Positions 240-44,638 of a stretch of DNA of 61,036 nucleotides are shown here, piece by piece. Source of the DNA: Planctomycetaceae bacterium. Lineage in GTDB: Bacteria > Planctomycetota > Planctomycetia > Pirellulales > Pirellulaceae. The notes below the pieces were generated by a model. It saw only the letters and a program-made list of their open reading frames with translations, had not been told where the DNA came from and did no database searches. Positions within the stretch are counted from its first letter, which is position 1, and each line of letters opens with the position of its first letter. The stretch is from NCBI GenBank assembly GCA_947463915.1, contig CANHVO010000007.1, forward strand, positions 1-61,036, written 5' to 3'. Position numbers and translations under genes: made by a program.

Positions 240-981
240 CCCAATGCAGCTGCCTCAGAGGACTTATGCTTAGCACTCGTTGCAGGTGGGAAGCGTACCC
301 TGTGTTAGGCTTAGTGATCGCTGTTATCTGAAATGCATCTTCCGGCGAAACGAGCAGAAATCGTTGAGAGGCAAGCTCAATTCCGGCACGCTTCGTTGGA
401 AGCATGACTTCCACTTTCTCCGAACCTCCAAGCAACGCAGTCACGGCTTCGACGTAGAGGTTTACACTTAAGGACGTACCCCAGTCTCGAATTAGCTCTA
501 CAATCAAGTTGACAAAAAATTCGGGACCACGATAACCCTCGCGATGAACCGTGAACGATCTTCTTTCGACGAAAGGTATTGCTGCATTGACGAACTCAGC
601 TTCGACCTTTTGGAAGGCAAAGTTGACAAGTTTCCCTCGTTCCAAGTTCAGGAGATTCAGGTATGTTAGGAGTTGGCCTCGGTGCGCATCGGATATCGCC
701 TTCACTACCTTCAGTTCATATACTGCTCTGTGATCAATGACATGATCCAAGTAGAGAGACTTTTGAAATGATTTATGGGATACAGAAATCTCGACCTCAC
801 GATCAACGTGGAAGCCGGTATGAATTAGCCGTGCTGCGAAGTCTGCCTGATAAACTCGTTCGTCAGCTAGACTGCCGATTGAATTTTGGCAGTCGAACGC
901 ATGCTGCATGACCTTGTAATCAAGGGTACTGAATTCATCCTGGGACATGGACCGGATAGGTACGCTGCATTGAATGGGCAT
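166..981 (-). CDS. GxxExxY protein, PD-(D/E)XK nuclease-like
   Basis: A 271-residue member of the GxxExxY family (PDDEXK_3-type), which is multicopy in planctomycetes and of unknown function. The fold is that of a PD-(D/E)XK nuclease. The N-terminal third carries the family block around IGSLADERVYQ (residues 34-45), where G, E and Y of the name align as G36, E41 and Y44. The acidic-Lys core follows: D80/D83 and YELK (88-91). The C-terminal part (about 145-261, FTVHREGYRGPEFF to PLRQLHWVNV) matches full-length relatives, so the gene is not truncated. The tail RNQAETSNAEK comes from the hairpin repeat that supplies the stop codon. The start at 981 fits the usual MPI opening of the family. Its position between two copies of the same hairpin suggests gene and repeat spread together. 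Confidence 0.85.
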   Translation of the reverse strand: MPIQCSVPIRSMSQDEFSTLDYKVMQHAFDCQNSIGSLADERVYQADFAARLIHTGFHVDREVEISVSHKSFQKSLYLDHVIDHRAVYELKVVKAISDAHRGQLLTYLNLLNLERGKLVNFAFQKVEAEFVNAAIPFVERRSFTVHREGYRGPEFFVNLIVELIRDWGTSLSVNLYVEAVTALLGGSEKVEVMLPTKRAGIELASQRFLLVSPEDAFQITAITKPNTGYASHLQRVLSISPLRQLHWVNVARHQVQFVTIRNQAETSNAEK

Positions 982-1004
982 GGTGGATTCAACACCTGTT
1001 TTTG

Positions 1005-1113
1005 GGCAGAAAGATCGAACGCAGAAAGATGAGTCGCATTTATTTTTCTGCGTTCGATGTTTCTGCCTGATTTCGTATCGTAACGAACTGAACTTGATGT
1101 CGAGCGACGTTTA
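1005..1113. repeat. 109-bp hairpin repeat, copy 2
   Basis: Second copy of the 131-239 element: arms 1005-1027 and 1045-1067, tail to 1113. The last three bases (TTA on plus) are the TAA stop codon of the CRTAC1 gene at 1111-3396. Because the same TTA ends copy 1, the stop codon probably belongs to the repeat, so the element appears to have inserted at the very end of that gene. It may also act as a terminator for it; no U tract follows. Confidence 0.9.
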
Positions 1114-23074: not shown

Positions 23075-23105
23075 TGTCCCATGATCGCGATTCGTGAGGA
23101 TGAAA

Positions 23106-24401
23106 ATGATACCAAAATACCGCAAGCATCTATCTAGCGGGCGAGCTGTGGTGACTCTTAGTGGCCGAGATTGCTATCTCGGGGTTTATGGTTCTGAAGA
23201 GTCCAAGCAGAACTATCGGCGACTGATCGCCGAATACTTAGCATCTGATGGGCTTTTCCTGTCAAAAGCCGATAAAGAAACCCTTTCGATTTCTAGTCTT
23301 GCGGAGGCCTATCTGCGACATGCGAAAAAGGAATTCGGGGGGGATAGACTCTCTCGCAAAGAACTGCTCCGGACGGCCTTTGGTGACGCACTGCTGGGCT
23401 GCCGAGCTCTTACTTCTGTGTATGGCCCAACCCTGGCGAACGATTTTGGACCGCAGTCGCTAAAGGCCATTCGAGAGGACTTATTGATTCACCATAAGAA
23501 CGGACTACGAAAGGATGGCCAGCCAAATCGCCGGTTAACACGCCCCGTAGTCAATCGAAGAATCCGGGCGATCGTGCGTATCTTCAAGTGGGCCGTGGCT
23601 GAATCGCTTGTCAGGGCTGAAGTTTGGCATTCTTTGCAGGCAGTCGAGTCGCTCAAGCTTGGAAAATGCAAAGCACCTGAACCGGCCCCAATAAAACCCA
23701 TCGAGAACCATGTCGTCGACCAAACACTTTTGCATCTGCCGCCGGTTGTTGCTGACATGGTTCGATTTCAACTTCTTGTTGGCTGCCGGCCAGGCGAGGT
23801 ATGTGGACTTAGGCCGGAAATGATCGACCAAACTGGCGAGGTATGGGAGGCAAACTTGGACAAGCACAAGACCGCCTGGCGCGGCAAGAAGCGAATCCTC
23901 TACATCGGTCCGCAAGCTCAATTGATTATCAAGAAGTATCTGAACCGGCCTGCCGACTCGTATTGCTTCTCACCCATTGAGGCCATGGATCAGCGAATCG
24001 AGAAGCGAGCGAATGCGAGACTGACTCCAAAAAACCAAGGAAACCGAGTTGGCTACACAAAACAGACCCGAATAGCAAAGAAAGCTCGGAAGCGACACAC
24101 TCGACTCAAGAATGTTTCCGATTGCTACGTCACAACAAGCTACGGTAGAGCGATTCTCTATGGTTGCCGACTTGCGTTTCCAGCACCGAGCGGGCTGTCA
24201 GAAAAGCAAATTAAAGAATGGCATCGTCAGCACAAGTGGAGCCCAAATCAATTGAGGCATTCGGCTGCAACGCGAATTCGAAAGGCGCATGGACTCGAAG
24301 CCGCGAGCGTGATTCTTGGTCACAGCGAGCTTGGAGTCACTCAAGTCTATGCCGAAGCAGATCGAGACAAGGCGATCGCAATTTCGAAATCTGACGGATG
24401 A
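23106..24401 (+). CDS. Tyrosine recombinase (island integrase)
   Basis: About 431 residues. ATG 23106 is chosen over GTG 23094 because AGGA precedes it and relatives begin near PKYRKH. The N-terminal arm and core-binding domains are followed by the catalytic domain: Arg I in LVGCRPGEVCGL, the Lys strand near HKTAWRGKKRILYI, box II as SPNQLRHSAAT, then LGHSELG and Tyr in VTQVYAEAD. The first His of the HxxR motif is replaced by Asn (NQLR), as I recall for other planctomycete integrases. It should integrate and excise the island at tRNA-His, cutting within the 44-bp att core. It lies next to attL and reads inward. Confidence 0.95.
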   Translation: MIPKYRKHLSSGRAVVTLSGRDCYLGVYGSEESKQNYRRLIAEYLASDGLFLSKADKETLSISSLAEAYLRHAKKEFGGDRLSRKELLRTAFGDALLGCRALTSVYGPTLANDFGPQSLKAIREDLLIHHKNGLRKDGQPNRRLTRPVVNRRIRAIVRIFKWAVAESLVRAEVWHSLQAVESLKLGKCKAPEPAPIKPIENHVVDQTLLHLPPVVADMVRFQLLVGCRPGEVCGLRPEMIDQTGEVWEANLDKHKTAWRGKKRILYIGPQAQLIIKKYLNRPADSYCFSPIEAMDQRIEKRANARLTPKNQGNRVGYTKQTRIAKKARKRHTRLKNVSDCYVTTSYGRAILYGCRLAFPAPSGLSEKQIKEWHRQHKWSPNQLRHSAATRIRKAHGLEAASVILGHSELGVTQVYAEADRDKAIAISKSDG

Positions 24402-24731
24402 TTAAGACCAACGCGTAAGGATTTTTTTGAATTTCTTAAAACTACTGTGCGCCAATGCTTAAGGGAATGCTTAAGGGTGTTACAAAAAGAAAATGTTTTG
24501 AGATCTTCGTAAAAGATGTTACACAGTTTTAGCGGAACTGCACCCAGTTCCGTTTGCGTCCAGTTCGAATAGCCATCGAACTGGACCGCGCGTTCCAGCG
24601 CGCTGCCAAATAACACTGGTCGCATGGTACCAACCAATCACATCCGCACGATCCGGCGGATGGGGCGCGGCAGGATCCCGTTGGGAGTCGGTGACTCGTA
24701 TGGGATTTCGTTTTTTTTGGCAGAGATTTTT
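24402..24731. promoter_or_regulatory. Hairpin cluster and 12-bp tandem repeat after integrase
   Basis: 330 bp without a gene. AATGCTTAAGGG is repeated exactly in tandem (24454-24465, 24466-24477), followed by two TGTTACA-type direct repeats. Three hairpins come next: GGAACTG/CAGTTCC (24534-24551), TCCAGTTCGA/TCGAACTGGA (24559-24585, perfect 10 bp) and CGCGC/GCGCG (about 24587-24602). Between the integrase and replication genes, this could be an origin or regulatory region; that is inference. Confidence 0.5.
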
Positions 24732-25070
24732 ATGAGTAGTATTTCCTGTTCGACTTTTTCAAGTCCGTCGAGTTTTTCAGAACCTGGGAGATTGTATCCA
24801 GTCGCCAAAGTAATCGAGATGGTTACTGGCGTTCGTCCAAGCCCGATGCAATTGCATCGCTACACAACCGGCAAAGGTACTTCAGGGATAGTGTTACCGA
24901 CAGTATTCTTGGGCGGTCGCAAAATGACTTGCGTTTCCGACGTTCAGCAGTGGATCGCTGACGTTACGGCCAAGCGGCAATCAATGACGCGCACGATTGT
25001 GACTAAGCCGTCCGAAGTCGCCAAAAGGCATGCCAAGTCTGAAGCGTTTCTCCGAAGCGAAGGTGTCTAG
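24732..25070 (+). CDS. DUF1580-like helix-turn-helix protein
   Basis: About 112 residues from ATG 24732; the longer reading from 24624 passes through hairpins and is less likely. The core has the layout of planctomycete DUF1580 and MerR-like DNA-binding proteins: a helix-turn-helix around RPSPMQLHRYTTGKG, a beta-turn IVLPTVFLGGRKM, then SDVQQWIADVT. Such proteins are common next to integrases in planctomycete islands and probably regulate excision or replication. The next gene starts 2 nt after its stop. Confidence 0.65.
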   Translation: MSSISCSTFSSPSSFSEPGRLYPVAKVIEMVTGVRPSPMQLHRYTTGKGTSGIVLPTVFLGGRKMTCVSDVQQWIADVTAKRQSMTRTIVTKPSEVAKRHAKSEAFLRSEGV

Positions 25071-25072
25071 CG

Positions 25073-25327
25073 ATGTCGAACGACAACGGAGGTCAGCTCG
25101 ACATTAAGATCGCACGTTTTTTGCATAATCGCACGGAGCTAGGCGCGACACGCGATGAAATCGCAGAAGCACTTGGGACATTAATTCAAAGCGTATGCCC
25201 GTCCATTGCTCGCTTACGAAAGCGATTCCCCGCAATCGTGATCGAAACAAAGGCAATGCGACCGACACGAAGTGGTCGCAATGCACGTGTGCTAGTACAT
25301 ACACGGCATGCAAACACCCCGCCCTGA
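25073..25327 (+). CDS. Small winged-helix-like protein
   Basis: 84 residues, start two bases after the previous stop. Residues 10-50 (KIARFLHNRTELGATRDEIA with EALGTLIQSVCPSIARLRKR) fit a helix-turn-helix or winged-helix DNA-binding fold that recognises a direct target. The tail is basic. It forms an operon with the DUF1580-like gene and ends in a GC-rich hairpin. A regulatory role in the island is inferred. I do not recognise a named family. Confidence 0.6.
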   Translation: MSNDNGGQLDIKIARFLHNRTELGATRDEIAEALGTLIQSVCPSIARLRKRFPAIVIETKAMRPTRSGRNARVLVHTRHANTPP

Positions 25328-25345
25328 TGCGTTTGGGCGGGGTGT
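25314..25345 (+). terminator. GC-rich hairpin at the end of the small HTH gene
   Basis: A perfect 11-bp stem, ACACCCCGCCC (25314-25324) with GGGCGGGGTGT (25335-25345), overlaps the stop codon. No U tract follows, so termination is uncertain. A second palindrome (CCGACATG/CATGTCGG, 25364-25386) lies just beyond and could be an operator for the next gene. Confidence 0.45.
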
Positions 25346-25494
25346 ATCAGAGAAAATCTATAACCGACATGTTTGCGACATGTCGGAACGCCACGGAGTA
25401 TTGGAAACTCAGAGGCAACGCTTTGATGAATCGTGCGACAGGCAGCAGAACCTCACTCACGATCAAAAAAGAATAAGCACGCAAGGGGTCTTAC

Positions 25495-27027
25495 GTGACC
25501 AAAGTTAGTATACCTTCAAACTTCAAAACCAACAACAAAACAGTAGTCATGATAGGAGACGATGAGTCTGATACCGCAGAGCAGGTAATTGGCAGTCTAG
25601 CAAAGCTGAGAGGTCGTGACGCGATCTATTCACGAGGTGGACAACTAGTTCACGTCGTTGCGCAAGACGAATCACGAGTCGCTGGAATGGAAGTTTCAGG
25701 CGAGCGTATTCGCCCGTTCCCAAAGCCATTGATACGCGAGAGAGTCACGCAATGTTGTCAACTCAAAAAGCAAAAGCAGAAAGGCGGCACCTACATTGCC
25801 AAGCCGGAAGCGTGGCTCGTGGATTCCATCTACCATCGAGGTTCTTGGGATTACATCAGGCCTCTTACGGGCATTACCGATTGCCCAAGAATGCGGAACG
25901 ATGGGTCCATTTTGCAGCAGATCGGCTATGACGAGTCAACAGGGCTCCTTTTTTCTCCGACAATTACTTTTCAAGAGATTGGCAATCATCCAACTCGCGA
26001 AGATGCAATTGAATCGGCGAACCGATTGCTTACGGTTGTTGCGGATTTCCCGTTCGAAACGATCTCGGATCGGCTAGGTTGGCTTTGCTTAGTGCTGACG
26101 TACTTATGTCGTCCAGCGATTCATGGGCCATGTCCCATGTTCGCTGTGTCCGCAAACGTTGCAGGTTCAGGTAAAAGCATGCTCATTGACATAGCGTCCT
26201 TGATTGCAACCGGTAAGGTCTCAGCAAGAAAGCCTTACCTGAACGATGGCGAACTTGGCAAATCGATCACGGCGATAGCAATCGAGGCAATCCCAAGCGT
26301 CATGCTCGACAATGTTGATGGATCGCTTGGCGGTGCAAACCTAGATATGGTTCTCACCTCTATGGTTTGGACCGATCGAGTTTTAGGAATCTCCGCTACG
26401 ACTGGCGAATTGCCTATACGCACTGTCTGGAGCTGTACAGGCAATAACGTACGATTTGCTGGTGATACACGTCGACGGGTACTTCCCATTCGCATCGATT
26501 CAAGACTCGAAAAACCAGAGGAACGTAAGGGTTTTAAGATCGACCCGTTACTTCCATGGGTACTCGAAAATCGTGCGAGCCTAGTCCGTGATGCACTTAC
26601 CATCGCCAGAGCGTTCGTTATCGCTGGACGCATCGATCAGGGGCTACGGTGGGGTTCGTTCGAGGCATGGACTGCACTTATCCCATCAGCGATAGCATGG
26701 TTAGGGTTGGGCTCGCCAATCGAAACGAGGGCAACGCTTGACGCAACAGACGATTCCCTTGAACTCGCGAGAGCGTTTATCCTGGGCATTGAGGAATCGA
26801 CGCAAAGGAGAGGTAAGCCAGTGACGGCCTCTGAGATAATAGATGATGCAGTTGGTTGGCTCGGTGAGATACGACAGGCAGTGCTACTTGTTGATGATCA
26901 ACTGAAGTCGCCGGTAAAAGTCGGCCTCACACTCAAGAAACTCAATCGAAGAGTCGTCGATGGCAAAATGATCGTCGCTCAAAAAGATCGCAAATCGATC
27001 AGCCGGTACTCTGTAGAGTTGGCATGA
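25495..27027 (+). CDS. D5/SF3-like helicase ATPase
   Basis: 510 residues from a GTG start. Residues 200-340 look like the ATPase core of phage and plasmid replicative helicases: a P-loop-like AGSGKS (223-228, lacking the canonical first Gly), an acidic Walker B region VMLDNVD (about 269-275), sensor Asn in CTGNNV (314-319), and Arg residues in GDTRRRVLPIRID (323-335) that could be arginine fingers. The C-terminal part contains a helical region that may bind DNA (GKPVTASEIIDDAVGWLG). With the primase 174 bp downstream it forms a replication module, implying the island copies itself after excision. Alternative: a DNA-dependent ATPase with another role. Confidence 0.7.
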   Translation: MTKVSIPSNFKTNNKTVVMIGDDESDTAEQVIGSLAKLRGRDAIYSRGGQLVHVVAQDESRVAGMEVSGERIRPFPKPLIRERVTQCCQLKKQKQKGGTYIAKPEAWLVDSIYHRGSWDYIRPLTGITDCPRMRNDGSILQQIGYDESTGLLFSPTITFQEIGNHPTREDAIESANRLLTVVADFPFETISDRLGWLCLVLTYLCRPAIHGPCPMFAVSANVAGSGKSMLIDIASLIATGKVSARKPYLNDGELGKSITAIAIEAIPSVMLDNVDGSLGGANLDMVLTSMVWTDRVLGISATTGELPIRTVWSCTGNNVRFAGDTRRRVLPIRIDSRLEKPEERKGFKIDPLLPWVLENRASLVRDALTIARAFVIAGRIDQGLRWGSFEAWTALIPSAIAWLGLGSPIETRATLDATDDSLELARAFILGIEESTQRRGKPVTASEIIDDAVGWLGEIRQAVLLVDDQLKSPVKVGLTLKKLNRRVVDGKMIVAQKDRKSISRYSVELA

Positions 27028-27201
27028 TGCCGGGGTTGCTGAGGTTGCCGGGGTTGTTTTCGATCACATCTGAAATCAATTCTTTTTCCATTTCAGCTCA
27101 GGATTGATTTACCCTCGGCAACCCCCAACCCCCGGCGTATTAACTCCGATTACAAACGTTCACTTACACCTAACAATCAACGCCAAAAATCAAAAATAGC
27201 T
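27028..27201. repeat. Direct and inverted repeats between helicase and primase
   Basis: TGCCGGGGTTG occurs at 27028-27038 and 27046-27056, and an inverted counterpart CAACCCCCGGC lies at 27126-27136. This could form a stem-loop or be iteron-like; it lies in the replication module. Confidence 0.6.
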
Positions 27202-28545
27202 ATGAGCACTTTAGTTTCTTCCACTTGTGTCGATGTTGCAACGTTTTTGCGCCTTCTCCATAGCGAAAGTTCGACGTTCGAGATTCGAATCCCGAATGTT
27301 CAAGGCAGTACCTATGCAGGTTTTTTCGACGATGTGGAGAAAGCCACTAGGGCAGTCTTGGAGTTCGAAAGGAAATACAGCCCGCCTGCCATCTACGTCA
27401 GCCTTAACCCTGTCGTCGATAGTGCGAGATCGACAGGAAACACAAAGTTCAAGGCCACCAGCGAAATCAAGGTTGCAAAAAACTGCATGAAGGACCCTGA
27501 CGTCCTTTATCGTCGATGGCTCTTTGTCGACATTGATCCCGTTCGGCAAACGAAGCCAAAATCCAATTCAACCGATTACCAAATGGAAGCCTCGATCGCA
27601 CTCGCAGAGCAAATCAGGAACGACATGATAGCGAAGGGATGGCCAGTACCACTGATAGCCGGCAGTGGCAATGGTGCCTACTTATTATGGAGAATCGACG
27701 AAGCCAATAACGACGAATCCGCCGATCTCTACCATAACTGCCTTGCTGCGTTTTCTGCTAAATACACACCTAAAGCACTGGACCACAAGAAAGCCATAAA
27801 AGAGCATTTCAATGAGGCAGATAACGCGATTAGCGATGCCATGGACATCGACATGTCGGTCCATAACGCCGCGAGGATTTGTAAAGTGATTGGGACTTGG
27901 GCTAGAAAAGGCGAGAACACGTCAATGCGACCACATCGCCGGTCATTTTTCCAGCCTGTTGATCGCATTGAGATAGTGCCAAATCATCTTCTCAAAGAAT
28001 TGTCTTTGACTTGTCCGGCGAGACAAAAGAAGGAGAGGACGCAAAGTCGAGGGTTTGCAATACCTTCAACGCCGCGATGCGTTGAAGTTGTATTGGATGC
28101 CAATGATGTCGTCATGAAGGAGGTGATTGCCGAATGCAAAATGTATCTTAGAAAGATCAACCCGGATCGGGCATGCGAGCGTGAAGACTGGCTGGACGTT
28201 GGCCGCGCTCTACACTACGTCCATCCGAGTTTGCTCGCCGAATGGATCCGATTTTCAAAACAATCTCCAAAATTCGAGCTAGGTGAATGCGAAGAGTTTT
28301 GGCAGAGCTTTGATCGAGGCAAAGAAGTAACCTACGGAACACTTATGTACTTCGCGATCTATGACGATCATCGCAAAAAAATGAGAAAGTTTCGAGACAA
28401 TTGGCTTTTGGAATTGGACCCCGACTCGCAAACCGACTTAGAGTTCTTGGCGACGAAGTGTCGAGCAAAGAACGAAGAGATTGGGGAAAAGTACAGGCTT
28501 TCGGAAATGGAAATGAAAGCTCTTTTGGAACCGATAACGGAATGA
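27202..28545 (+). CDS. AEP-type primase with PriCT-2-like tail
   Basis: 447 residues. The N-terminal half fits an archaeo-eukaryotic primase-polymerase: FVDIDP (about 108-113) gives the catalytic Asp pair, followed by SGNGAYLLWRID in place of the usual SGxGxH block, then HNAARICKVIGTWARKG. The C-terminal part has the PriCT-2-like helical module (YLRKINPDRACEREDWLDVG, LHYVHPSLLAEWIRFSKQSP). It probably makes primers for island replication together with the helicase-like gene upstream. It converges on the HTH gene at 28579. The usual His of the second motif is replaced by Tyr, so activity is uncertain. Confidence 0.75.
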   Translation: MSTLVSSTCVDVATFLRLLHSESSTFEIRIPNVQGSTYAGFFDDVEKATRAVLEFERKYSPPAIYVSLNPVVDSARSTGNTKFKATSEIKVAKNCMKDPDVLYRRWLFVDIDPVRQTKPKSNSTDYQMEASIALAEQIRNDMIAKGWPVPLIAGSGNGAYLLWRIDEANNDESADLYHNCLAAFSAKYTPKALDHKKAIKEHFNEADNAISDAMDIDMSVHNAARICKVIGTWARKGENTSMRPHRRSFFQPVDRIEIVPNHLLKELSLTCPARQKKERTQSRGFAIPSTPRCVEVVLDANDVVMKEVIAECKMYLRKINPDRACEREDWLDVGRALHYVHPSLLAEWIRFSKQSPKFELGECEEFWQSFDRGKEVTYGTLMYFAIYDDHRKKMRKFRDNWLLELDPDSQTDLEFLATKCRAKNEEIGEKYRLSEMEMKALLEPITE

Positions 28546-28578
28546 ATAACGAAGTGTTTTTCAAACACACGCCACAAC

Positions 28579-28887
28579 TCAATCGCTCACCGATCCGATT
28601 TTAGAACGCAAGGGTTTCGGCTTGGGTAGCTTCTTGCAAATTTTTTTCTTTCTTGACAACCCTTGCGGCTTCGCGACAGGATCGAGCTTCTTCGCGTCAG
28701 GCAGCGTCGCAGACTGAATGTATTCTTCGAGCCATTCAACCAAGACTCTGTAATGCTTGCGAGTCTTTGAGTTTGAAATCGTGAATGCCTTCAGTCGCCG
28801 CTGCACGATCAGCGACCATACCGCAAATCGGGAAACATTTAGCCGAAGAGCTACTTGCTCTATCGTCATCGCTGGTTCATTGCTCAT
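28579..28887 (-). CDS. Excisionase-family HTH protein
   Basis: 102 residues with AGGGGG before ATG 28887. The N-terminal 55 residues are a MerR/excisionase-type winged helix (MTIEQVALRLNVSRFAVWSL, IVQRRLKAFTISNSKTRKHY). The C-terminal tail is very basic (SRKKKICKKLPKPKPLRSK), as in DNA-bending recombination directionality factors. It is the only minus-strand gene in the left two-thirds of the island and is divergent from hsdM. It could be the excisionase, or a regulator of hsdM and its own promoter. Confidence 0.75.
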   Translation of the reverse strand: MSNEPAMTIEQVALRLNVSRFAVWSLIVQRRLKAFTISNSKTRKHYRVLVEWLEEYIQSATLPDAKKLDPVAKPQGLSRKKKICKKLPKPKPLRSKIGSVSD

Positions 28888-29266: not shown

Positions 29267-30853
29267 ATGGCAAAAAAGAAATCCGACTCCGCCAAAAGTA
29301 GCTCCGCCAACCTTGGATTCGAGGCCAAGCTTTGGCTTACCGCCGACAAGCTTCGAAACAACATGGACGCGGCGGAATACAAGCATGTCGTCCTTGGCTT
29401 GATCTTCCTGAAGTACATCTCCGACACGTTTGAAGAACATCGAACAAAACTGGAAGCGGGCAAAGGTGACTACGCTGGCGCGAATCCAGAAGACCCAGAC
29501 GAATACAAAGCCGAGAATGTCTTCTGGGTTCCCAAAGAGGGGCGCTGGTCTCATCTCCAGTCAAATGCCAAGCAACCGACCATCGGCAAGATCGTCGATG
29601 ACTCCATGGTCGCCATTGAGCGAGACAACCCGCGTCTTAAAGGAGTCCTTCCTAAGGACTACGCCCGTCCAGGACTCGACAAGCAGCGACTTGGCGAGCT
29701 CATCGACGTCATCGCTACCATTGAACTTACTGCCGCAAGCGAAGGAGAAAAGACACATCGCTCCGTCGATCTGCTAGGTCGGGTCTACGAGTATTTCCTG
29801 ACTCGCTTCGCTAGCGCTGAGGGCAAAAACGGTGGTCAGTTCTACACCCCTTCTTGTGTTGTACGTTGTCTTGTTGAAATGCTTGGCCCATACAAAGGTC
29901 GCATTTATGATCCATGCTGTGGCTCGGGTGGGATGTTTGTTCAGTCAGAGAAATTCGTCGAGTCCCACGGCGGCAAGCTTGGCGACATCAGTATCTACGG
30001 CCAAGAGAGCAACGCGACTACCCGCCGGCTCGCAGTAATGAATCTCGCACTTCGTGGCATCGAAGCGGACTTCGGCCAAGAGCACGCGGACACCTTCCGC
30101 CGCGATCTGCATCCAGACCTTCGAGCGGACTACGTTCTGGCTAATCCACCCTTCAACGACAGCGACTGGTTCCGCAAAGATGACGATGTGCGTTGGCAAT
30201 TTGGTGTCCCGCCAAAAGGCAATGCGAATTTCGCTTGGGTCCAGCATTTCGTTCATCACTTGTCGCCAACTGGGTTAGCGGGTTTTGTTCTTGCGAACGG
30301 TAGCATGAGTTCCAACCAATCGGGCGAAGGAGAAATTCGCAAATCGCTCATCGAAGCCGATCTAGTGGACTGCATGGTTGCAATGCCTGGCCAGCTGTTT
30401 TACAGCACGCAGATACCGGTATGTCTTTGGTTCCTAACGAAGAGCAAAAAAGCTGATTCCAAACGCGGATTCCGTGAACGTCGCAAGCAAACCCTTTTTA
30501 TCGATGCACGTAAACTCGGCACCCTCATTGATCGCGTCCATCGCGAGTTAACAGACGTTGATCTTGAGAAAATCACAACGACTTATCATGCATGGCGTGG
30601 AGGTAAAGGGGCTGGTAAGTACGAAGACATCGCCGGCTTCTGCAAATCTGCCTCAACGGAAGAAATTGCTTCGCACGGCTACGTCCTCACTCCAGGTCGA
30701 TACGTCGGGGCCGAGGAAGTCGAAGACGACGGCGACCCTTTCGAGGAAAAGATGCCACGCCTCGTCGCCGAACTGCATTCCCAGTTCGCCGAGTCTGCGA
30801 AGCTAGAGCAGGTTATCAAAGCAAATCTGAGGGGGCTGGGTTATGGCGGGTGA
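29267..30853 (+). CDS. hsdM: Type I R-M methyltransferase subunit HsdM
   Basis: 528 residues, normal length. It starts with the HsdM N-terminal helical domain ([20 protein letters not shown]). The N6-adenine methyltransferase motifs are intact: motif I DPCCGSGG (about 215-222) and motif IV NPPF (about 292-295). It transfers methyl groups from SAM to adenine at the site chosen by HsdS, in an M2S complex. Its end overlaps hsdS by 11 nt, so the two are coupled. hsdR lies 4.7 kb downstream, after four extra genes. Confidence 0.97.
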
Positions 30854-32093
30854 AAACTGGCCGCTCGTTCCTCTCGGCGAACTTACCGAGAATCTAGACG
30901 GGCGTCGGGTTCCAGTGAAGGAGAACGAGCGCAAGCCGGGACCATATCCGTATTACGGTGCCTCTGGAATCGTGGACCAAGTCGATGGCTACCTCTTCGA
31001 CGGCGAGTATCTGCTCATTGGCGAAGACGGCGAAAACCTGCGCACTCGCCAAACGCCGATTGCATTCATGGCGACGGGAAAGTTTTGGGTAAACAACCAC
31101 GCGCACATCGTTCGTGGAAATCATCGAGCAGACACTCGCTTTCTAAGCTATGTGCTTTCTCAGACAGAAATCAGCGGCTACCTCACTGGCTCAACGATGC
31201 CCAAGCTCACGCAGGGCAATTTGAATCGCCTGCCGGTGATCGCGCCGCCCCTCGCCGAGCAAAAAGCCATCGCAGCGGTGCTTGGGGCGCTGGACGACAA
31301 GATCGAGTTGAACCGACGGATGAACGCGACTCTGGAGGCGATGGCGAGAGCGCTGTTCCAGAGCTGGTTCGTGGATTTCGAACCTGTCCGCGCCAAACTC
31401 GACGGCCGTACTCCCGCCGCCCTCGACCCTGCCACCGCCGCTCTATTCCCCGACGCTTTCCAAGAAACATTGCAAGGTCACATTCCAATGGGATGGCGGC
31501 TTTCAAGGATTACTGATTGTTGCGAGCGAATCCATAGTGGTGGTACACCCCGACGGGACGAGCCAGAATACTGGAATGACGCGACGATCCCCTGGCTTAC
31601 ATCCGGTGAAGTACGACAGCCGATGATCACAGCAACAGAGAATTTTATCTCAGGGTTGGGGCTTAAAGATTCGTCAGCAAAGTGGGTTCCGGCAAATTCA
31701 ACCGTGGTTGCGTTGTACGGCGCGACAGCTGGTCAAGTTTCGTTCCTTGGTTCGAGAGCAACAACAAATCAAGCAGTCTGTTCACTAATACCAAAACCCC
31801 AATTCGAGTACTTCAATTACTTCATGATGCGTAGTGCCACCGCTGAGATGGAGAAAAAAGCTGTCGGATCTGCGCAACAAAACATCAGTAAAGGAATTAT
31901 CGAAGAAACTTCTGTGGTTTTGCCTTCGACTGAAGTTCTCGCACGATTTAATCTTGCGGTTGGACCACTTTTCGAAAATTGGATTTCGAGCATCAAGCAA
32001 TCCGGCACCCTCGCCACTATCCGCGACACGCTGTTACCGAAACTTCTGAGCGGGGAGTTGAGCTTGAACGCAGCTATCAAGGGTGCATCGTGA
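30843..32093 (+). CDS. hsdS: Type I R-M specificity subunit HsdS
   Basis: 416 residues with two target-recognition domains, each followed by a conserved helical spacer. TRD1 begins [17 protein letters not shown]; the first spacer is [20 protein letters not shown] to [21 protein letters not shown]2 is near [20 protein letters not shown] and the C-terminal spacer-like segment is shorter, ending [15 protein letters not shown]. It determines the bipartite target site. It is translated from inside the hsdM end. No recombination repeats that would indicate phase-variable switching are visible, and no second hsdS is present. Confidence 0.95.
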
Positions 32094-32231: not shown

Positions 32232-33224
32232 ATGACAATTGCAAATGAGTTGGGCAGACTTGAGAAAGTTGAGCTTCGCGATGTTTGGGCAAGCGAATCG
32301 AGTGACTTTACGCCCTGGCTTGCACAAGAAACAAACATTGAACTACTGGCCGACACGCTTGGACTCGATATGGAGGTTGAGGCTCAAGAAATGGGCGTTG
32401 GTCCATATCGAGCCGACATTGTTTGCAAGGATGTTTCCGATGGTTCGCTTGTACTCATTGAGAACCAACTCGAAAAAACCGATCATTCGCACTTAGGCCA
32501 GCTCTTAACCTACGCGGCTGGACTAGATGCAGTCACCATTGTTTGGATCGCCGAGCGCTTTACAGATGAGCATCGGGCGGCAATGGACTGGCTAAACGAA
32601 AATACGGGTGAAAGCGTTAGCTTCTTCGGTCTTGAGATCCAGTTATGGCGAATCGGCGAATCGCCAATAGCACCAAAGTTCAACGTGGTGAGCAAGCCCA
32701 ACGATTGGATCAAAGGTGGTAGCGGGGGAGCGAAGAATACAAGCCTTGAAAACATCTCGCCAACGAAATTACTCCAACGCGATTATTGGATTGCCTTTCG
32801 CGAAGTTCTTGCTGCCCGTAGTAGTAACTTAAAAGTACACAAAGCTAACCCTCAGCACTGGCTAACGGTTTCGATAGGGCGAGCAAACTTCAACATGTCT
32901 GCGACGGTAAACACCAATCAAAATCGTATTGCGGTGGAGGTTTACATGAACGGGCCACTTGCAAAGCAACACTTTCATCGGCTTAAAGAACAGCAGGTTG
33001 AGATAGAAACGGAAATTGGAATTGGATTGGATTGGCGTGAACTGCCAGAAAAGGACACATCTCGAATCCTCATCGTTCGAAACAATTCAAGCATCAAGGA
33101 AAGCGAGTGTTGGGCTCAACAACATCAATGGTTAGCGGACACGCTGGAGAAATTCAATAAGGTGTTTCGGCCTAGGATTTCACAGCTACCAGTCTCGTAT
33201 GAGTCCGAAGTGGAAGAAGCATGA
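32232..33224 (+). CDS. DUF4268 PD-(D/E)XK nuclease-like protein
   Basis: 330 residues; AAGGG precedes the ATG. The N-terminal 100 residues have the PD-(D/E)XK-like core: Asp62 in RADIVC, Glu77 in LIENQ with Gln79 replacing the usual Lys, and Gln90 in HLGQLLTYAAG. The C-terminal half (about 185-320, LLQRDYWIAFREVL to DTLEKFNKVFRP) fits the DUF4268 domain. Relatives often lie beside restriction systems. The stop overlaps the next start in ATGA, coupling it to the DCD-like gene. A DNA cleavage role is inferred; the missing Lys leaves activity unproven. Confidence 0.8.
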   Translation: MTIANELGRLEKVELRDVWASESSDFTPWLAQETNIELLADTLGLDMEVEAQEMGVGPYRADIVCKDVSDGSLVLIENQLEKTDHSHLGQLLTYAAGLDAVTIVWIAERFTDEHRAAMDWLNENTGESVSFFGLEIQLWRIGESPIAPKFNVVSKPNDWIKGGSGGAKNTSLENISPTKLLQRDYWIAFREVLAARSSNLKVHKANPQHWLTVSIGRANFNMSATVNTNQNRIAVEVYMNGPLAKQHFHRLKEQQVEIETEIGIGLDWRELPEKDTSRILIVRNNSSIKESECWAQQHQWLADTLEKFNKVFRPRISQLPVSYESEVEEA

Positions 33225-33613
33225 ACTTCAAAGCCTACGTCTTCGAATGTAACAGCGATACCTATTTAGATTGCATGGGAAAGAGTCTATTCGGTTCGAA
33301 TAAGCCCTGGCCCCTTGAGATCAACGAAGGCGATTTTTGTTTGCTTCACCACTACGAGATCGGCGGACTGCTCGGGTTGTGGCAAGCGACTTCCAATGGG
33401 GCCAGGAATATTGTGCCAAAGATATGGGGCGGTAAGTTCCCATTCCAAGTACGTGTCAAGCTAGTTGTCCCCAAAGTCACCGATGTTCCCAGATCTCTGC
33501 TAATCGAACTGGGTGCTGACCCATCGATAGGACGCTTCGATAACTGCTTGGACGAAAACTTGGGAGCAACGATTTTGGGTTTTTTCCATATTGAAAAGAC
33601 TAAACCCGTGTAG
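33221..33613 (+). CDS. DCD/EVE-like (PUA superfamily) putative modified-base reader
   Basis: 130 residues, translationally coupled to the DUF4268 gene. The layout matches the DCD domain: AYVFECNSDTYLDCMGKSLFG (5-25) equals the plant FMCNSxTxxEC...VFG block, INEGDFCLLHHYEIGGLLG (34-52), LWQATSNGARNI (53-64) and KFPFQVRV (72-79) equal the closing KFPAQVRF block. DCD is a PUA-like fold related to EVE and YTH domains, several of which bind modified bases. With a nuclease-like partner in a restriction locus, recognition of modified DNA is an attractive inference, not shown. A search against DCD, EVE and ASCH profiles would decide. Confidence 0.65.
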   Translation: MNFKAYVFECNSDTYLDCMGKSLFGSNKPWPLEINEGDFCLLHHYEIGGLLGLWQATSNGARNIVPKIWGGKFPFQVRVKLVVPKVTDVPRSLLIELGADPSIGRFDNCLDENLGATILGFFHIEKTKPV

Positions 33614-33702: not shown

Positions 33703-34851
33703 ATGCCCGCATCTATTTTTGTTTTGAACGGAGATTCTAAATTGACCGAGGTGAAGCAGTCGGAGTTTGATTACGAAAGCAAGTTCCAAGAGTTGATTGC
33801 AAACCACCCGGAACTACTTCCAGGCGAGTTGATCAACCCTGCAAAGCCCCGAAGATGGATCTTGGTAAAGCGTGAAATGGGAATCCCTGATGAGGAAGAA
33901 GGTGGCAATCGATGGAGCCTGGACCATTTGTTCCTGGACCAAGATGGAATTCCAACTTTGGTCGAAGTCAAAACAGTTGGGGATCCACGCGCTCGCCGCG
34001 AAGTGGTTGCGCAAATGCTCGACTACGCAGCCAATGCAGTTCTCAATTGGAAGGTCGATACAATTCGATTAGCCTTTGAACAACAATGTGAAGATTCGCG
34101 TACCGACTCCGTAGATGTCCTGGCCAATCTTATCGGTCCCAACAAATCGCCAGAGGAGTTTTGGGAATCCGTAAAGACCAACCTGGAAGCCCAAAAGATT
34201 CGTATGATCTTTCTTGCCGACAAGATTTCGGAGGAATTGAAGACGATCGTCTGTTTCCTCAATCGTCAAATGGAAGTAGCAGAAGTTCTTGCCGTTGAAT
34301 TGCAATACTTCACTAACGAAAACAAGACAATTCAGACGTTGGTCCCAACGCTTTACGGGGAAACAGCGGCACTAAAATCCAAGCGAAGTAGTACCTCCAT
34401 CTCGACCAGCGTACAGATCTCCAAGGAAGACTATTTACAGTCTATTGCTCAGCAGGACTCTCCCAATCGACTTGCGACGATACAGAGTGTCCTTGCCTGG
34501 GCAGAACAGAACTCGCACGGATTGAGTTTCAGTCGCGCTAACGAAGATACCGTATTCAGCCCAGCTTGCGTTGTCGACAAGAAGCGAGTGTATCCTATCA
34601 ATTGCAAACAACCAGGTAGACTTGTCTTGCGAATGAAGGAACTCGCAAGGTACTATCCTCCATTCGATGCGATAGAGACACAAAAGCAGCTTGAAACTAT
34701 GTTGTCTCAAATTCCAGGGTTTGTAATTCGTGGTGGAATGACCGGCTTGCCCTATGTCGATATGGATAAGTTAGAAACGGCACAGGATCGGGAGGCCCTA
34801 ATACAAGTCCTCGATTGGATCGTATACCAGCTTCGGAATCCGGGGAACTAA
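33703..34851 (+). CDS. PD-(D/E)XK nuclease-like protein
   Basis: 382 residues; AAAGGA precedes the ATG. The N-terminal half carries a clear PD-(D/E)XK signature: Asp74 in SLDHLFL, Glu88-Val-Lys90 in TLVEVK, and Gln104 in VVAQMLDYAANAV, giving D-x13-E-x-K and the Q motif of Mrr/RecB-like nucleases. The rest is mixed, with a C-terminal region (about 240-380) that could bind DNA or a partner. It is the second nuclease-like gene between hsdS and hsdR. Named family not recognised. A role in restriction of incoming DNA is inferred. Confidence 0.75.
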   Translation: MPASIFVLNGDSKLTEVKQSEFDYESKFQELIANHPELLPGELINPAKPRRWILVKREMGIPDEEEGGNRWSLDHLFLDQDGIPTLVEVKTVGDPRARREVVAQMLDYAANAVLNWKVDTIRLAFEQQCEDSRTDSVDVLANLIGPNKSPEEFWESVKTNLEAQKIRMIFLADKISEELKTIVCFLNRQMEVAEVLAVELQYFTNENKTIQTLVPTLYGETAALKSKRSSTSISTSVQISKEDYLQSIAQQDSPNRLATIQSVLAWAEQNSHGLSFSRANEDTVFSPACVVDKKRVYPINCKQPGRLVLRMKELARYYPPFDAIETQKQLETMLSQIPGFVIRGGMTGLPYVDMDKLETAQDREALIQVLDWIVYQLRNPGN

Positions 34852-34903: not shown

Positions 34904-35518
34904 ATGTCAATCGAGTCACCGAGAATGTCAGAACCGATAACTCCTATTCGAAAGCACGGCAATGAACCAATCATAGGGCCATGCGGCGGTTCTGTTACAA
35001 CGCTGATTGAGTTCTGGCAATGGTCTGCTTCAAACATTTTGGATAATACGCTTCGAGGTGTGTTTGCGGAGTTCCTTGTTGCTTGCTCACTTGGCGTCCA
35101 TCATAAACACCGAGTGGAATGGGAGCCGTTTGATTTACTAAGCAATGAAGGCGTGCGAATCGAAGTGAAGTCTGCTGCTTACGTGCAGGCATGGGAACAG
35201 AATAAATTCTCCACAATCTCGTTTGATATTAGTCCAACATCTAGTTGGAACAAGCAGACGAAACGCTATTCCGAGACGAAACAACGTCGCTCAGATTTGT
35301 ACATTTTTTGCTTGTTGGGCAGTCCGGAATCTTGGGATGTCAATCCGCTTAATCTAAACCATTGGACATTTTTCACGCTCGAAACAACTCAGCTTGATGC
35401 GAAACTACCAACGCAAAAGCGGATTTCTTTGTCGAGGCTTGACAGCTTGGGAGCAAAGAAATGTAACTACTCGCAACTTGCAGATGCGGTTTTGCCTGCA
35501 TCCGTCAAGCAAGACTAG
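34904..35518 (+). CDS. Small PD-(D/E)XK nuclease-like protein
   Basis: 204 residues (an ATG at 34925 is an alternative start). A compact single domain with Asp77 in PFDLLS, Glu87-Val-Lys89 in RIEVKS, and an upstream acidic residue in GVFAEFLVACSLG (52-64). This is the D-x9-E-x-K arrangement of restriction-endonuclease-like folds. Later residues (QRRSDLYIFCLLG) resemble the last beta strand and helix of such folds. It is the last of the four genes inserted before hsdR. I do not recognise a named family. Confidence 0.7.
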   Translation: MSIESPRMSEPITPIRKHGNEPIIGPCGGSVTTLIEFWQWSASNILDNTLRGVFAEFLVACSLGVHHKHRVEWEPFDLLSNEGVRIEVKSAAYVQAWEQNKFSTISFDISPTSSWNKQTKRYSETKQRRSDLYIFCLLGSPESWDVNPLNLNHWTFFTLETTQLDAKLPTQKRISLSRLDSLGAKKCNYSQLADAVLPASVKQD

Positions 35519-35583: not shown

Positions 35584-38500
35584 ATGCCCCTTAACGAATC
35601 CCATGTCGAAGACGCTGCCTTAAGTTGGTTCGAAGAGTTGGGCTATTCTGTCGGCCATGGCCCGCATTTAGCGCCCGGAGAACAAGCATCCGAGCGTGAG
35701 TCGTTTAGCGATGTCGTTCTTGTTGGCAGACTACGCCATGCGATCGAGCGACTGAATCCAGCGATACCAGCCGAGGCACAAGAAGAAGCTCTGCGCAAAG
35801 TACTTCGCATTGGGACTCCATCGCTGATTCAAACCAACCGTGCGTTTCACAATCTGTTGCGCAATGGTGTCGACGTCGAATACCAACGTCCAGACGGATC
35901 GATAAAAGGTGACAAGGTATGGTTGTTTGATTTTGACGATGTTTCGGCCAACGATTGGTTCGTAGTAAATCAGTTCACCGTGATCGAGGGGCATAACAAT
36001 CGACGTCCAGACATCTTGGTCTATGTCAATGGTTTGCCCGTCGGACTCATCGAACTCAAGAACGCGATCGATGAGGGAGCTACTATTTGGACGGCATACT
36101 CGCAGGTGCAGACTTACAAGGCAGAAATCCCTTCGTTGATGCAGTACAATGCCGCGATCGTCGTAAGCGACGGACTTGAGGCTCGAATCGGCTCACTCAC
36201 TGCGAATCAAGAATGGTTTAAAGTCTGGCGAACGATCGAGGGTGAAAGCGATGCTCCAAGAGCATCGCTCGAACTTGAGGTCATGGTTCGAGGTGTTTTC
36301 GATCGCCGGCGGTTCCTCGATTTGCTTCAACACTTCATTCTGTTCGATGTCGATCCCGATAGTGGCTCAATACACAAAATCATCGCCGGCTACCATCAGT
36401 TCCATGCTGTCAACGCGGCTCTCGACGAGACAGTTCGAGCTAGCGGTATGTTGAAGCCTGTTGGCATTGGAGAACCTCAGGGAACGTACTGGGCAGGTCC
36501 AATGCATGGCGGAAAACCCGGTGATCGCCGAGCTGGTGTCGTGTGGCATACTCAGGGAAGCGGCAAAAGTTTCTCAATGCTCTTCTATGCGGCCCGAATC
36601 GTTCGCTTCAAGCCGATGCAGAACCCGACACTGGTCGTGCTTACAGATCGCAATGACCTCGATGAGCAGTTGTTTGGACAATTCCAACGATGCCATGACA
36701 TGCTTGGTCAAACTCCACAACAGGCAGAGGGACGCGAACACTTGCGACAACTGCTCAATCGTGCGAGCGGCGGCGTAGTATTCACGACGGTTCACAAGTT
36801 CATGCCCGAATCGGGCGAAAAGATGCCTGAACTAAGCAACCGACAGAACATCGTCGTGATCGCTGACGAAGCACATCGTAGCCAGTACGGTTTTGCGGGT
36901 AAGGTGAATGAGAAGACCGGCGAGATTTCGTATGGGTTTGCTAGTAACCTACGAACCGCACTACCGAATGCGTCCTTCATCGGATTTACTGGCACTCCGA
37001 TCGAAATGAGAGATGCCAACACTCGATCGGTTTTTGGAGACTACATCAGTATCTACGACATTCAGCGAGCTGTCGCGGATCGGGCCACTGTTCCGATTTA
37101 CTACGAAAGCCGAATAGCAAAGCTCGGACTAAATGCCGCCGAATTGCCAAAGATTGATCAAGATTTTGATGAGATAACTGAAGGTGAGGAACTATCAAAA
37201 AAGGAAAAGATCAAATCAAAATGGGCAGCGCTCGAAGCGTTGGTCGGCCATCCCAAACGAATCGCTCTCATCGCAAGTGATCTTGTCAATCACTTTTCAA
37301 AACGCATCGAAGCGATGGAAGGCAAGGCAATGATCGTCTGCATGAGTCGTCGGATTTGCGTCGAGCTTTATGATGCGATCATCAAGCTGCGTCCTGAGTG
37401 GGCAAGTGACGAAAACGACGATTCCGAAAAAGAATCGGGTAAGCAATGCATCGCCAAAGTCATTATGACCGGCAGTGCCGAAGATGGACCAGCTTGGCAA
37501 CCGCACATTCGAAACAAAGACAAACGTCGAACACTGGCGAATCGATTTAAAGACAGCAAAGACCCATTTCGCATCGTGATCGTTCGAGACATGTGGCTTA
37601 CCGGATTCGACGCTCCTTGCCTACATACTATGTACGCAGACAAACCAATGCAGGGACACGGATTGATGCAAGCGATTGCTCGCGTGAACCGAGTCTTCAA
37701 AGACAAGCCAGGCGGATTGATCGTAGACTATCTAGGGCTAGCGGATCAGCTCAAGCAGGCTCTCGCAACTTACACAGAGAGCGGCGGCAAAGGCAACCCA
37801 ACGTTCGACGCAGTCCAAGCTATCGCCGTCTTGAAGGAGAAATTCGGCGTTGCCAAGGACATGATGCACGGGTTCAATTGGTCGAAATGGGTAAATGGAA
37901 AGCCAGCAGAGCGATTGGCATTGATACCTGCCGGCCAAGAGCACATTTTAGAACAAGACGACGGCAAGAAGCGATTCGTCAAAATCGTATCGGAGTTGTC
38001 TCAAGCCTTTGCTCTTAGTGCTGCAAGCGACGAAGCGACGGCAATACGCGACGACGTCTCGTTCTTTCAAGCAATTCAGGCGGCACTTAACAAGCAAACA
38101 ACGAATACTCGCAAGACGCCCGAACAGATCGACGCGGCTGTCCGCCAACTCGTTTCGAGTGCGATTACGACCGAAGGACAGGTTATCGACGTCTTCACGG
38201 CGGCAGGACTTGCGAGACCGGACATTGGCATCCTTTCGGCGGAGTTCTTGGCCGAAGTTCGCGGACTAAAGCATAAGAACGTTGCGGCAGAACTGCTTGC
38301 TAAGTTACTGAAGGATGAAATCAAGGGTCGGACGCGACGAAACTTAGTTCAGTCTCAGTTGTTCAGCGACAAGTTGCGAAAGACTCTTAACGCTTACCAC
38401 AACCGGGCGATTGCAACGCAAGAGATTGTCGAAGAATTGATCAAGCTTGCAAACGAAATGGCGGAAGCTCGAAAGCGAAGTGAACAGCTCGGACTTACCG

Positions 38501-38784
38501 ACGACGAAATCGCCTTCTATGATGCTTTGGCGACGAACGAATCTGCAATCGTTGCGATGGGCGACGATAAGCTCAAAGTCATTGCCGCAGAGTTGATAAG
38601 CAGTGTCCGAAAAAGCGTGACCATCGATTGGACGCTGCGTGAAAGCGCTCGCGCCAAGATCAAAGTGCTCGTGAAACGCATTTTAAACCGCTACGGCTAC
38701 CCGCCCGACCTTCAGGAAGAAGCGGTCAAAACGGTTTTGCAGCAAGCAGAGCTCATGTGCGTCGATTGGGCCATCGAGGCTTGA
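35584..38784 (+). CDS. hsdR: Type I R-M restriction subunit HsdR
   Basis: 1066 residues, full length. The N-terminal nuclease is [19 protein letters not shown] (about 139-157), giving D...E-x-K. The SF2 motor follows: Walker A TQGSGKS (about 321-327), the DEAH box (DEAHRSQYG, about 427), motif III FTGTPI, and later [13 protein letters not shown] and [11 protein letters not shown] (motifs V-VI). The C-terminal part is helical and binds the MTase core. It translocates DNA and cuts it when HsdS finds unmethylated sites. It is separated from hsdS by 3.5 kb of nuclease-like genes, which is unusual; most loci have hsdM, hsdS and hsdR adjacent. Confidence 0.97.
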
Positions 38785-42816: not shown

Positions 42817-43398
42817 ATGTCGACCCATCGCCCCCAGATTACCAATTTCCCATTTGAATTAGCTAAAGCAGTTCAGTCATTTGGAGTGCTTTTTTCTTCC
42901 GAAAACGACCCAAAGGTTGCGTACTACAGGCTTCTAAAGCTTCTCTACATAGCGGACCGAGAGTACTTGAAGGAAACTGGCAGGCCAATTGTTGGCGGAA
43001 CCGATGTCGCCATGCGGAGAGGGCCGCTGAACAGCCAAGCTTATGATCTGATCAAGGGGGAACACCAGGATTCTAGTTTTTTCCTACGGCATTTTTGCAA
43101 GGACGGGAAGCGACTTCTAGTTATGTTGGTTGATCCAGGTCGCGATGATTTGTCGCGGAGGGAAGTTCGAAAGCTGATGGAAGTGTCAGAGAAGTATCGC
43201 GACCTAGATGATGATGAACTTGGCGAACTTACCCATGAATTTCCAGAGTACACCGAAAATTACGTCGAGAATTCCTCTAGGCCGATTAGTTTGCAAAGCA
43301 AACTTCAAGCATTGGAAATGACCAAATCAAAGGACTCCATCGAAACGGACATCGAGGCGATCGTAGCGTGGAAGCAACTGATAGGATCGGCCAAATAA
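42817..43398 (+). CDS. Panacea-domain (SocA-like) antitoxin
   Basis: 193 residues. The N-terminal 115 residues have the Panacea/DUF4065 pattern: KVAYYRLLKLLYIADREYLK, PIVGGTDVAMRRGPLNSQAYD and later LTHEFPEYTENY. Panacea is known as a promiscuous antitoxin domain paired with many unrelated toxins. The partner starts with a GTG immediately after this stop. Expected to neutralise that partner, perhaps by direct contact, and may also regulate the operon. Confidence 0.8.
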   Translation: MSTHRPQITNFPFELAKAVQSFGVLFSSENDPKVAYYRLLKLLYIADREYLKETGRPIVGGTDVAMRRGPLNSQAYDLIKGEHQDSSFFLRHFCKDGKRLLVMLVDPGRDDLSRREVRKLMEVSEKYRDLDDDELGELTHEFPEYTENYVENSSRPISLQSKLQALEMTKSKDSIETDIEAIVAWKQLIGSAK

Positions 43399-43779
43399 GT
43401 GGAGATTGGCGATGTTTACCTTCCGACCAATAAGGCGATTGACGTCCATCCGCGAATTGTGATCTCCGATCCAGAACTAAACCCAAACCAAGTCGTATTA
43501 GTGAACTTCACTGGCTTTGAGGGGGAGTTTCGGGATCATTCTTGTGTTCTGGAAGTCGGCGAATACGGTTGGCTCACGAAAAAGACTTGCATTTCATACA
43601 AGGATGCATCCGTCGTTAACCAACAAGAATTTGACACGCTTTATGAACGCGGAGCGTTGAAAAAGCTTGCACCTGTAGATGATAGTGTTCTCGCAAAGAT
43701 CCTGAACGGAGCTGAAGTTTCCGATGAACTCCCAAACAAGTGCCGTCGCATTCTCGCGGCACAAAATCTGATCGATTAG
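43399..43779 (+). CDS. Putative toxin partner of the Panacea antitoxin
   Basis: 126 residues from a GTG directly after the antitoxin stop (TAA-GTG). The N-terminal half is beta-rich and PemK/MazF-like in order: IGDVYLPTNKAIDVHPRIVI, then VVLVNFTGF and YGWLTKKTCISYKDASVV. The C-terminus is a helical KCRRILAAQNLID. An SH3-barrel ribonuclease fold is inferred by eye only. The gene order antitoxin-toxin and zero spacing fit a toxin-antitoxin pair that would stabilise the island. Confidence 0.6.
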   Translation: MEIGDVYLPTNKAIDVHPRIVISDPELNPNQVVLVNFTGFEGEFRDHSCVLEVGEYGWLTKKTCISYKDASVVNQQEFDTLYERGALKKLAPVDDSVLAKILNGAEVSDELPNKCRRILAAQNLID

Positions 43780-43954
43780 CCATCAACTAAACCTTCTAAG
43801 GCAATCGTTCTAAACACTTTCCGTAAACAACCGCTCGGTTATTTACACGTTCGCCCAAAATCCGGGCCCCAACTTCGCTTTAATGCTTGCCAAAAGGCAA
43901 GTACCGCCAACAATACTTGGCAAATAGAAAGCAACCATGGCAGGAGCGATCGGA

Positions 43955-44638
43955 ATGACCAAGACAGTAGCATACATTCGAGTGTCGACAGAGGATCAAG
44001 CAACCGATGGCGTCTCTTTGGCAGCTCAACGGGCTAAAATCGAGGCTTGGTGTGTTGTAAACGATAGCGAGTTGCTCGAAGTTCATTCCGATGCTGGAAT
44101 CAGTGGCGGCAGAGCTGACAATCGACCTGGATTGCAAGCAGCGATTGAAACAGCATGCAAGCAAAAGGCCGTACTGGTCGTCTATTCACTGAGTCGGCTT
44201 GCTCGATCGACCAAAGACACAATCCTAATAGGCGAAAAGCTAGATAAAGCGGGCGCTGACTTGGTTTCGCTGTCGGAAAAGATCGACACAACGAGCGCAG
44301 CGGGCAAAATGGTGTTCCGAATGTTGGCTGTTATGGCCGAATTTGAAAAAGACCAAATCAGCGAGCGAACAAAGTTCGCAATGGCTCACAAGAAATCGAA
44401 ATCCGAGCGTGTTGGGACGATACCCTACGGCTATGATTTGGCGATCGATGGCGTCGCGTTGATAAAGAACACGAATGAGCAATCAGCAATCGAGCTCGTG
44501 AACGAGCTAAACTCACGCGGAATGAGCCTTCGTGAGATCGCCGACGAGCTAACCGCGAGGGGCTATCTCACTAAGAAGGGCAAAGACCGTTGGAACCACA
44601 TGACAGTCAAGAACATCCTGAACCGCAAAGCATCTTAA
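43955..44638 (+). CDS. Serine recombinase (resolvase/invertase family)
   Basis: About 227 residues. ATG 43955 is preferred because AGGAG lies 8 nt before it; ATG 43937 adds six residues. The N-terminal domain has the nucleophile Ser in YIRVSTEDQ (Ser11), VVYSLSRLARSTKDTI, and EFEKDQISERTKFAM in the E helix. A C-terminal DNA-binding helix-turn-helix follows (SLREIADELTARGYLTKKGK). Probably acts on DNA inversion or resolution within the element; the tyrosine recombinase at the other end is the likelier integrase. Its target sites are not identified. Confidence 0.93.
   Translation: MTKTVAYIRVSTEDQATDGVSLAAQRAKIEAWCVVNDSELLEVHSDAGISGGRADNRPGLQAAIETACKQKAVLVVYSLSRLARSTKDTILIGEKLDKAGADLVSLSEKIDTTSAAGKMVFRMLAVMAEFEKDQISERTKFAMAHKKSKSERVGTIPYGYDLAIDGVALIKNTNEQSAIELVNELNSRGMSLREIADELTARGYLTKKGKDRWNHMTVKNILNRKAS

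Follow-up and report, generated by a model that had tools for sequence, protein, structure and literature searches.

A standalone DCD gene and a DUF4268 nuclease-like gene between hsdS and hsdR of a planctomycete type I restriction-modification locus

Prokaryotic DCD domains have been described as EVE-like and associated with type I restriction systems, and as linked or fused to PD-(D/E)XK nucleases, with a predicted role in the restriction of modified DNA (Bell, Wolf, Koonin 2020, PMC7641849). According to the same source they are rare, occur mostly in archaea and hyperthermophilic bacteria and are often fused to methyltransferases, and the idea of modification-dependent restriction by these proteins is already in print there (PMC7641849). 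A comparable logic of reader and nuclease is reported for type IV endonucleases with PUA-like readers, among them VcaM4I with its EVE domain, YTH-McrB and the SRA enzymes (PMC12707154).

A second line of work concerns the interval between hsdS and hsdR, which is occupied in some type I loci by rlo (R-linked ORF) genes (PMC4619093, PMC5183652). Among the defence genes found near GmrSD, those of type I restriction-modification (R-M) systems are given as the commonest, and a GmrSD element located between hsdS and hsdR goes by the name RloF; DUF4268 has been recorded as an extra domain of GmrSD proteins in the same report (PMC4619093). The hsdS-hsdR site has further been described as a potential recombination hotspot for defence systems such as DarTG2 (PMC12255303), and PrrC, whose gene lies inside a type IC locus, as a guard of its type I locus (PMC12707154). 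The rlo genes (RloF/GmrSD), DarTG2 and PrrC, as portrayed in these sources, share the slot and the idea of embedded defence with the locus described here, but belong to other gene families.

The locus lies in what we call the window, the whole stretch of 61,036 nucleotides analysed from a Planctomycetaceae bacterium, and all of its genes are on the plus strand. The gene for a type I DNA methyltransferase, hsdM (29267-30853; PF02384, E 2.4e-106; PF12161, E 5e-25), overlaps by 11 bases with that for the specificity subunit, hsdS (30843-32093; PF01420, E 3.8e-42), and the restriction subunit is encoded by hsdR (35584-38784; PF11867, E 8.6e-126; PF04313, E 1.6e-49; TIGR00348, E 1.8e-174). The interval between hsdS and hsdR, the position typical of rlo cargo, holds four accessory genes. 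After a gap of 138 bases, hsdS is followed by a DUF4268 gene of 330 aa (32232-33224; gene 1) and a standalone DCD gene of 130 aa (33221-33613; gene 2), which encodes a putative modified-base reader; 89 bases later comes a second accessory gene, PDC-S11-like and probably a PD-(D/E)XK nuclease (33703-34851; PDLC04916, E 1.9e-12), and then a third (34904-35518). Coordinates and Pfam matches thus agree with the initial annotation that the first two genes are embedded in a type I R-M locus and that they overlap at an ATGA, the four bases being common to both ORFs. We read the whole as a type I R-M system in which additional defence genes would be carried in a cargo slot between hsdS and hsdR, with the DCD gene as a recurrent reader accessory and the DUF4268 gene as an independent nuclease, and we give this reading slightly better than an even chance.

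The DCD assignment rests on two approaches. In the profile search the gene 2 product matches Dev_Cell_Death (PF10539) with 41.1 bits, against a cut-off of 27.8 (E 1.9e-10), over profile positions 2-85 of 126, the last third of the profile being unmatched. For the AlphaFold2 model, the window protein was aligned with 21 relatives (alignment A2, from which the one broken relative, that of locus L038, was left out); the model is of moderate confidence (mean pLDDT 68.6, pTM 0.64), and its elements run E H E H E E H E H H. Foldseek places PH1033, which we take to be EVE-like, and MJECL36 at the top of the matches, with YTH domains after them, and VIA-align gives Z 11.8 for PH1033 (rmsd 2.8, 117 aligned), Z 11.3 for MJECL36 and Z of about 10-11 for YTH domains. 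The model thus has the mixed barrel of the EVE/YTH-like fold (DCD/PUA-like superfamily), and the PUA-like fold first suggested from the layout of gene 2 is borne out, at the confidence of the model, by resemblance to PH1033 and to the YTH m6A readers. PF10539 matches are absent from 14 control genomes; of 294 genomes sampled from the phylum, two have a match, and the window's own is one of the two. Because the profile is so rare in controls, and the fold independently matches YTH and PH1033, the call is unlikely to be a chance one. NCBIfam holds no family for gene 2, and sequence comparison of the DUF4268 and DCD proteins with those of solved structures gave no match, or matches at chance level only. 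A role as modified-base reader is plausible on the strength of the model, and fold and family make a modified DNA base its most likely ligand. If that base were m6A or another, gene 2 would encode a small bacterial protein, related to the YTH readers, that works in defence.

The DUF4268 protein divides into two parts. It is a full-length match to the PADLOC defence candidate (PDC; PMC12813430) PDC-S11, with residues 2-318 on model positions 2-314 of 318 (E 9.4e-126), and its PF14088 (DUF4268) match spans residues 181-315 (E 2.5e-29); it differs from PDC-S11 as such by the overlapping DCD gene. No NCBIfam family was matched. In a structure model built from 26 sequences (mean pLDDT 88.4, pTM 0.51), the N-terminal part, residues 17-155 approximately, matches EndoMS/NucS best (2vld_A and 5gke_A, both Z 10.5, with 103-105 residues aligned) and PaqCI at Z 8.4, and the PD-(D/E)XK core fold is recognisable by comparison with both. 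E53, D62, E77, N78 and Q79 are invariant in all 26 rows of the alignment; D62 and E77 would supply the acidic metal-binding pair of the site, and the position at which the catalytic Lys is expected is Gln79 throughout. E-x-Q variants of the PD-(D/E)XK active site exist, for example in BglII. The earlier description of gene 1 as PD-(D/E)XK-like accordingly holds at the level of a predicted nuclease domain in which Gln replaces Lys. EndoMS/NucS has the same nuclease-domain fold, but gene 1 differs from it by the E-x-Q of its active-site motif and by another second domain. This C-terminal part, residues 180-323 approximately, matches YbjN (6vu7, Z 8.2) and type III secretion chaperones (Z 8.1 and lower); the middling scores may reflect a common arrangement, and the secretion-chaperone-like domain may act in dimerisation or partner binding. 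DUF4268 proteins of this type thereby gain a testable domain split, an EndoMS-like nuclease joined to a chaperone-like fold. We infer that gene 1 encodes an independent, widely distributed nuclease effector of the PDC-S11 kind, which would cleave DNA and contribute to defence.

The two remaining accessory genes may extend the set of nucleases. The 33703-34851 protein has no Pfam family; D74 and E88-V-K90 are invariant in all three rows available (the window and two relatives), and both relatives adjoin a DCD gene, in loci L020 and L038. The 34904-35518 gene has no family above the cut-off in Pfam, PADLOC or NCBIfam, and an EVKS motif after FDLLSNEG, read by eye, suggests another PD-(D/E)XK fold.

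The initial annotation had joined gene 1 and gene 2 into a functional pair, a dedicated two-component enzyme of type IV character in which the DCD protein would read a modified base and deliver the DUF4268 nuclease, complementing the methylation-sensitive type I system. The overlap of the two genes and the prediction of both a reader and a nuclease fold speak for it, as do the reported DCD-PD-(D/E)XK fusions elsewhere (PMC7641849), and DUF4268 relatives do occur beside DCD genes in some other loci. Their number is small: a DUF4268 relative accompanies DCD in three of 22 loci with close DCD relatives, in the orders DCD, one gene, DUF4268, hsdR (L019) and DCD, DUF4268, hsdR (L031), and, in L025, with a separate DUF4268 gene before hsdR. 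In L025 a GmrSD type IV restriction gene (3-2267) overlaps DCD (2264-2650) by four bases, and its C-terminal stretch is DUF4268-like at 23.8 bits, under the cut-off of 27; this overlap is the closest parallel to the arrangement in the window. Four rows of the DCD tree carry DUF4268, and four changes are needed to explain them; this count is a rough guide, as few branches of the tree are firm (one of 19 is starred) and the context labels were set by hand.

Surveys that start from the other partner point the same way. The family was represented by 241 genomes, with that of the window among them: DUF4268 was found in 25 and DCD (PF10539) in seven, all seven of one genus. Both genes occur in the window's genome only, against 0.73 shared genomes expected by chance, a comparison of low power. 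PF10539 had no match in the other 24 family genomes with DUF4268, no DCD relative was present in the 20 DUF4268 neighbourhoods examined from 20 of these 24, and none was present in 30 DUF4268 loci on viral contigs. For 40 hsdR places, both genes are nearby in one, DCD only in two, DUF4268 only in four and neither in 33 (p 0.34); these places derive from 57 match rows, from which 12 rows at 34-42% identity were dropped, as were five that repeated a contig as its second piece. Some of the 40 are fragments, and pairs from one genome on different contigs may be one gene. What remains is a hint of enrichment: DUF4268 is found in four of 12 DCD-bearing type I loci with the start of hsdR in view, whereas among hsdR places that lack DCD the count is four of 37 (p 0.088), a rate that may be depressed by the cut contigs in that set. 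The 12 are the window and 11 of the 22 loci, each with a window-like hsdR of at least 56% identity, and two of them, L018 and L020, also belong to the family survey. We rejected a conserved DUF4268-DCD pair, on the counts of three in 22 loci, one in 241 genomes, none in 20 neighbourhoods and none in 30 viral-contig loci; such rarity of the two genes together is the outcome that the initial annotation had itself named as its refutation. Type IV reader endonucleases are presented as one protein or one system (PMC12707154), whereas reader and nuclease in the window are separate and lack conservation as a pair. A published DUF4268-DCD pair was not found in the literature searched, outside which most subscription journals fall. 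A dedicated enzyme is thus an unlikely explanation, and a facultative partnership is possible, given L025 and L031.

The steadier association of the DCD gene is with the R-M locus itself. Relatives were collected by a scan of genome contigs with alignment A1 and two short peptide patterns, which reaches close relatives only; it returned the 22 loci, all of them Planctomycetota by record title, many on cut contigs and seven of them (L018, L020 and L033-L037) corresponding to the contigs of L009-L015. An hsd relative is present on the contig in 20 of the 22, or in 21 if L037 is counted through an hsdM fragment in its longer copy, L011; the exception is L038, which is included in the 22 and excluded from the tree, its DCD gene being broken. 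Some of these hsd relatives are distant (hsdM of 23-35% identity in L026-L028, L030 and L036), and in L028 the sole hsd relative lies on the opposite strand from DCD. The other neighbours vary, and include SLFN_AlbA_2, HipA-like, HIRAN, GmrSD, reverse transcriptase, DUF3037 and Fic genes, several of these names resting on one Pfam-searched member per BLAST cluster. This pattern suggests that DCD has the R-M locus, and no single nuclease, as its constant partner, and it adds a bacterial clade, the Planctomycetota, in which standalone DCD genes recur in type I R-M loci. The DCD domains of PMC7641849 resemble that of the window in their EVE-like character, type I context, linkage to PD-(D/E)XK nucleases and proposed function, and, unlike them as described there, the window DCD is a protein of 130 aa encoded on its own, within the cargo slot of a planctomycete type I locus.

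The same pattern bears on a different role for the reader. It would recognise the methyl mark made by the HsdM of its locus, much as m6A is recognised by YTH domains, and serve HsdR and the embedded effectors as a sensor, either regulatory or for telling self from non-self, instead of giving specificity to a type IV enzyme. The hsd genes are the steady neighbours while the effectors change, hsdM itself lies directly downstream of DCD in five loci (L033-L037), YTH domains are among the best structural matches of the model, and DCD-methyltransferase fusions have been reported (PMC7641849). A fold in common, however, says nothing of the ligand, and PH1033 and MJECL36 score as high as YTH. That the window HsdM makes m6A is, moreover, an expectation drawn from its family, and we regard the sensor as rather improbable. 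A bolder version, in which the YTH/EVE-like DCD of Planctomycetota is an adaptor that reads HsdM-set methylation and plugs in exchangeable effectors (PD-(D/E)XK nucleases, HipA-like kinases, GmrSD, reverse transcriptase), seems very unlikely to us; if it were true, one methylation-status sensor would control a swappable arsenal.

On the preferred reading of a cargo slot with a recurrent reader and an independent nuclease, the DCD protein would bind a modified DNA base and then inform or target the nucleases of the locus, while the DUF4268 nuclease would act as an independent embedded effector. In the window the two may nonetheless cooperate, because the ATGA overlap suggests translational coupling, by which the genes are probably linked, though such cooperation would be no general rule in the loci surveyed. 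Base reading, DNA cleavage and anti-phage defence would then all be functions of the window genes, and the two genes together look like a particular assortment of known defence parts that can be exchanged for one another, and not like a dedicated new system.

The independence of the DUF4268 nuclease is seen in its distribution. Relatives of hsd genes are present in seven of the 20 DUF4268 neighbourhoods (one a remnant and one distant) and in three of the 30 viral-contig loci, leaving 13 and 27 with none in view, some of them on cut contigs. With tblastn, the DUF4268 protein matched 306 plasmid records, 66 of them over at least 80% of the protein, and four phage records, none of them over 80%. 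DCD relatives were not found in the plasmid or phage collections, nor in the viral contigs, where a scan that reaches close relatives only matched a pattern in 28 stretches, none of them confirmed. Nucleases that occur so often without hsd genes in view weigh against a further explanation, a PrrC-like guard, under which the R-M complex would silence the embedded genes and phage anti-restriction proteins would release them. The position between hsdS and hsdR is that of the rlo genes and DarTG2, and PrrC itself is embedded in a type IC locus (PMC12707154); abortive effectors might also be present in related loci, in the form of the HipA-like, Fic and reverse-transcriptase genes near DCD. No PrrC model, however, is among the Pfam or PADLOC matches of the embedded genes of the window, and a guard function is, in our judgement, very improbable.

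Several arrangements in and around these loci deserve mention in their own right. A HIRAN-type gene precedes hsdR in L017, L020, L021 and L029, and in the last three of these loci a HipA-like gene separates it from DCD (the HipA_C matches of L020 and L021 being below the cut-off). In L032 a reverse transcriptase gene (310-1869; PF00078, E 3.3e-12) lies directly upstream of DCD in a type I locus, and in L016, from a distant genome of the phylum, DCD is apparently fused to an AAA-type ATPase (430-1794, minus strand; read by eye). Upstream of the R-M locus of the window, at 23094-28887, are a tyrosine integrase gene (PF00589), a DUF1580 gene, a primase-like gene (PriCT_2) and an HTH_17 gene, and a serine resolvase gene is found beyond it (43937-44638); the R-M locus looks like cargo of an integrated mobile element. 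Finally, window positions 42817-43779 hold a SocA/Panacea antitoxin-like gene (PF13274, E 2.6e-18), directly followed by a gene of 126 aa without a Pfam family, and the two are a possible toxin-antitoxin pair.
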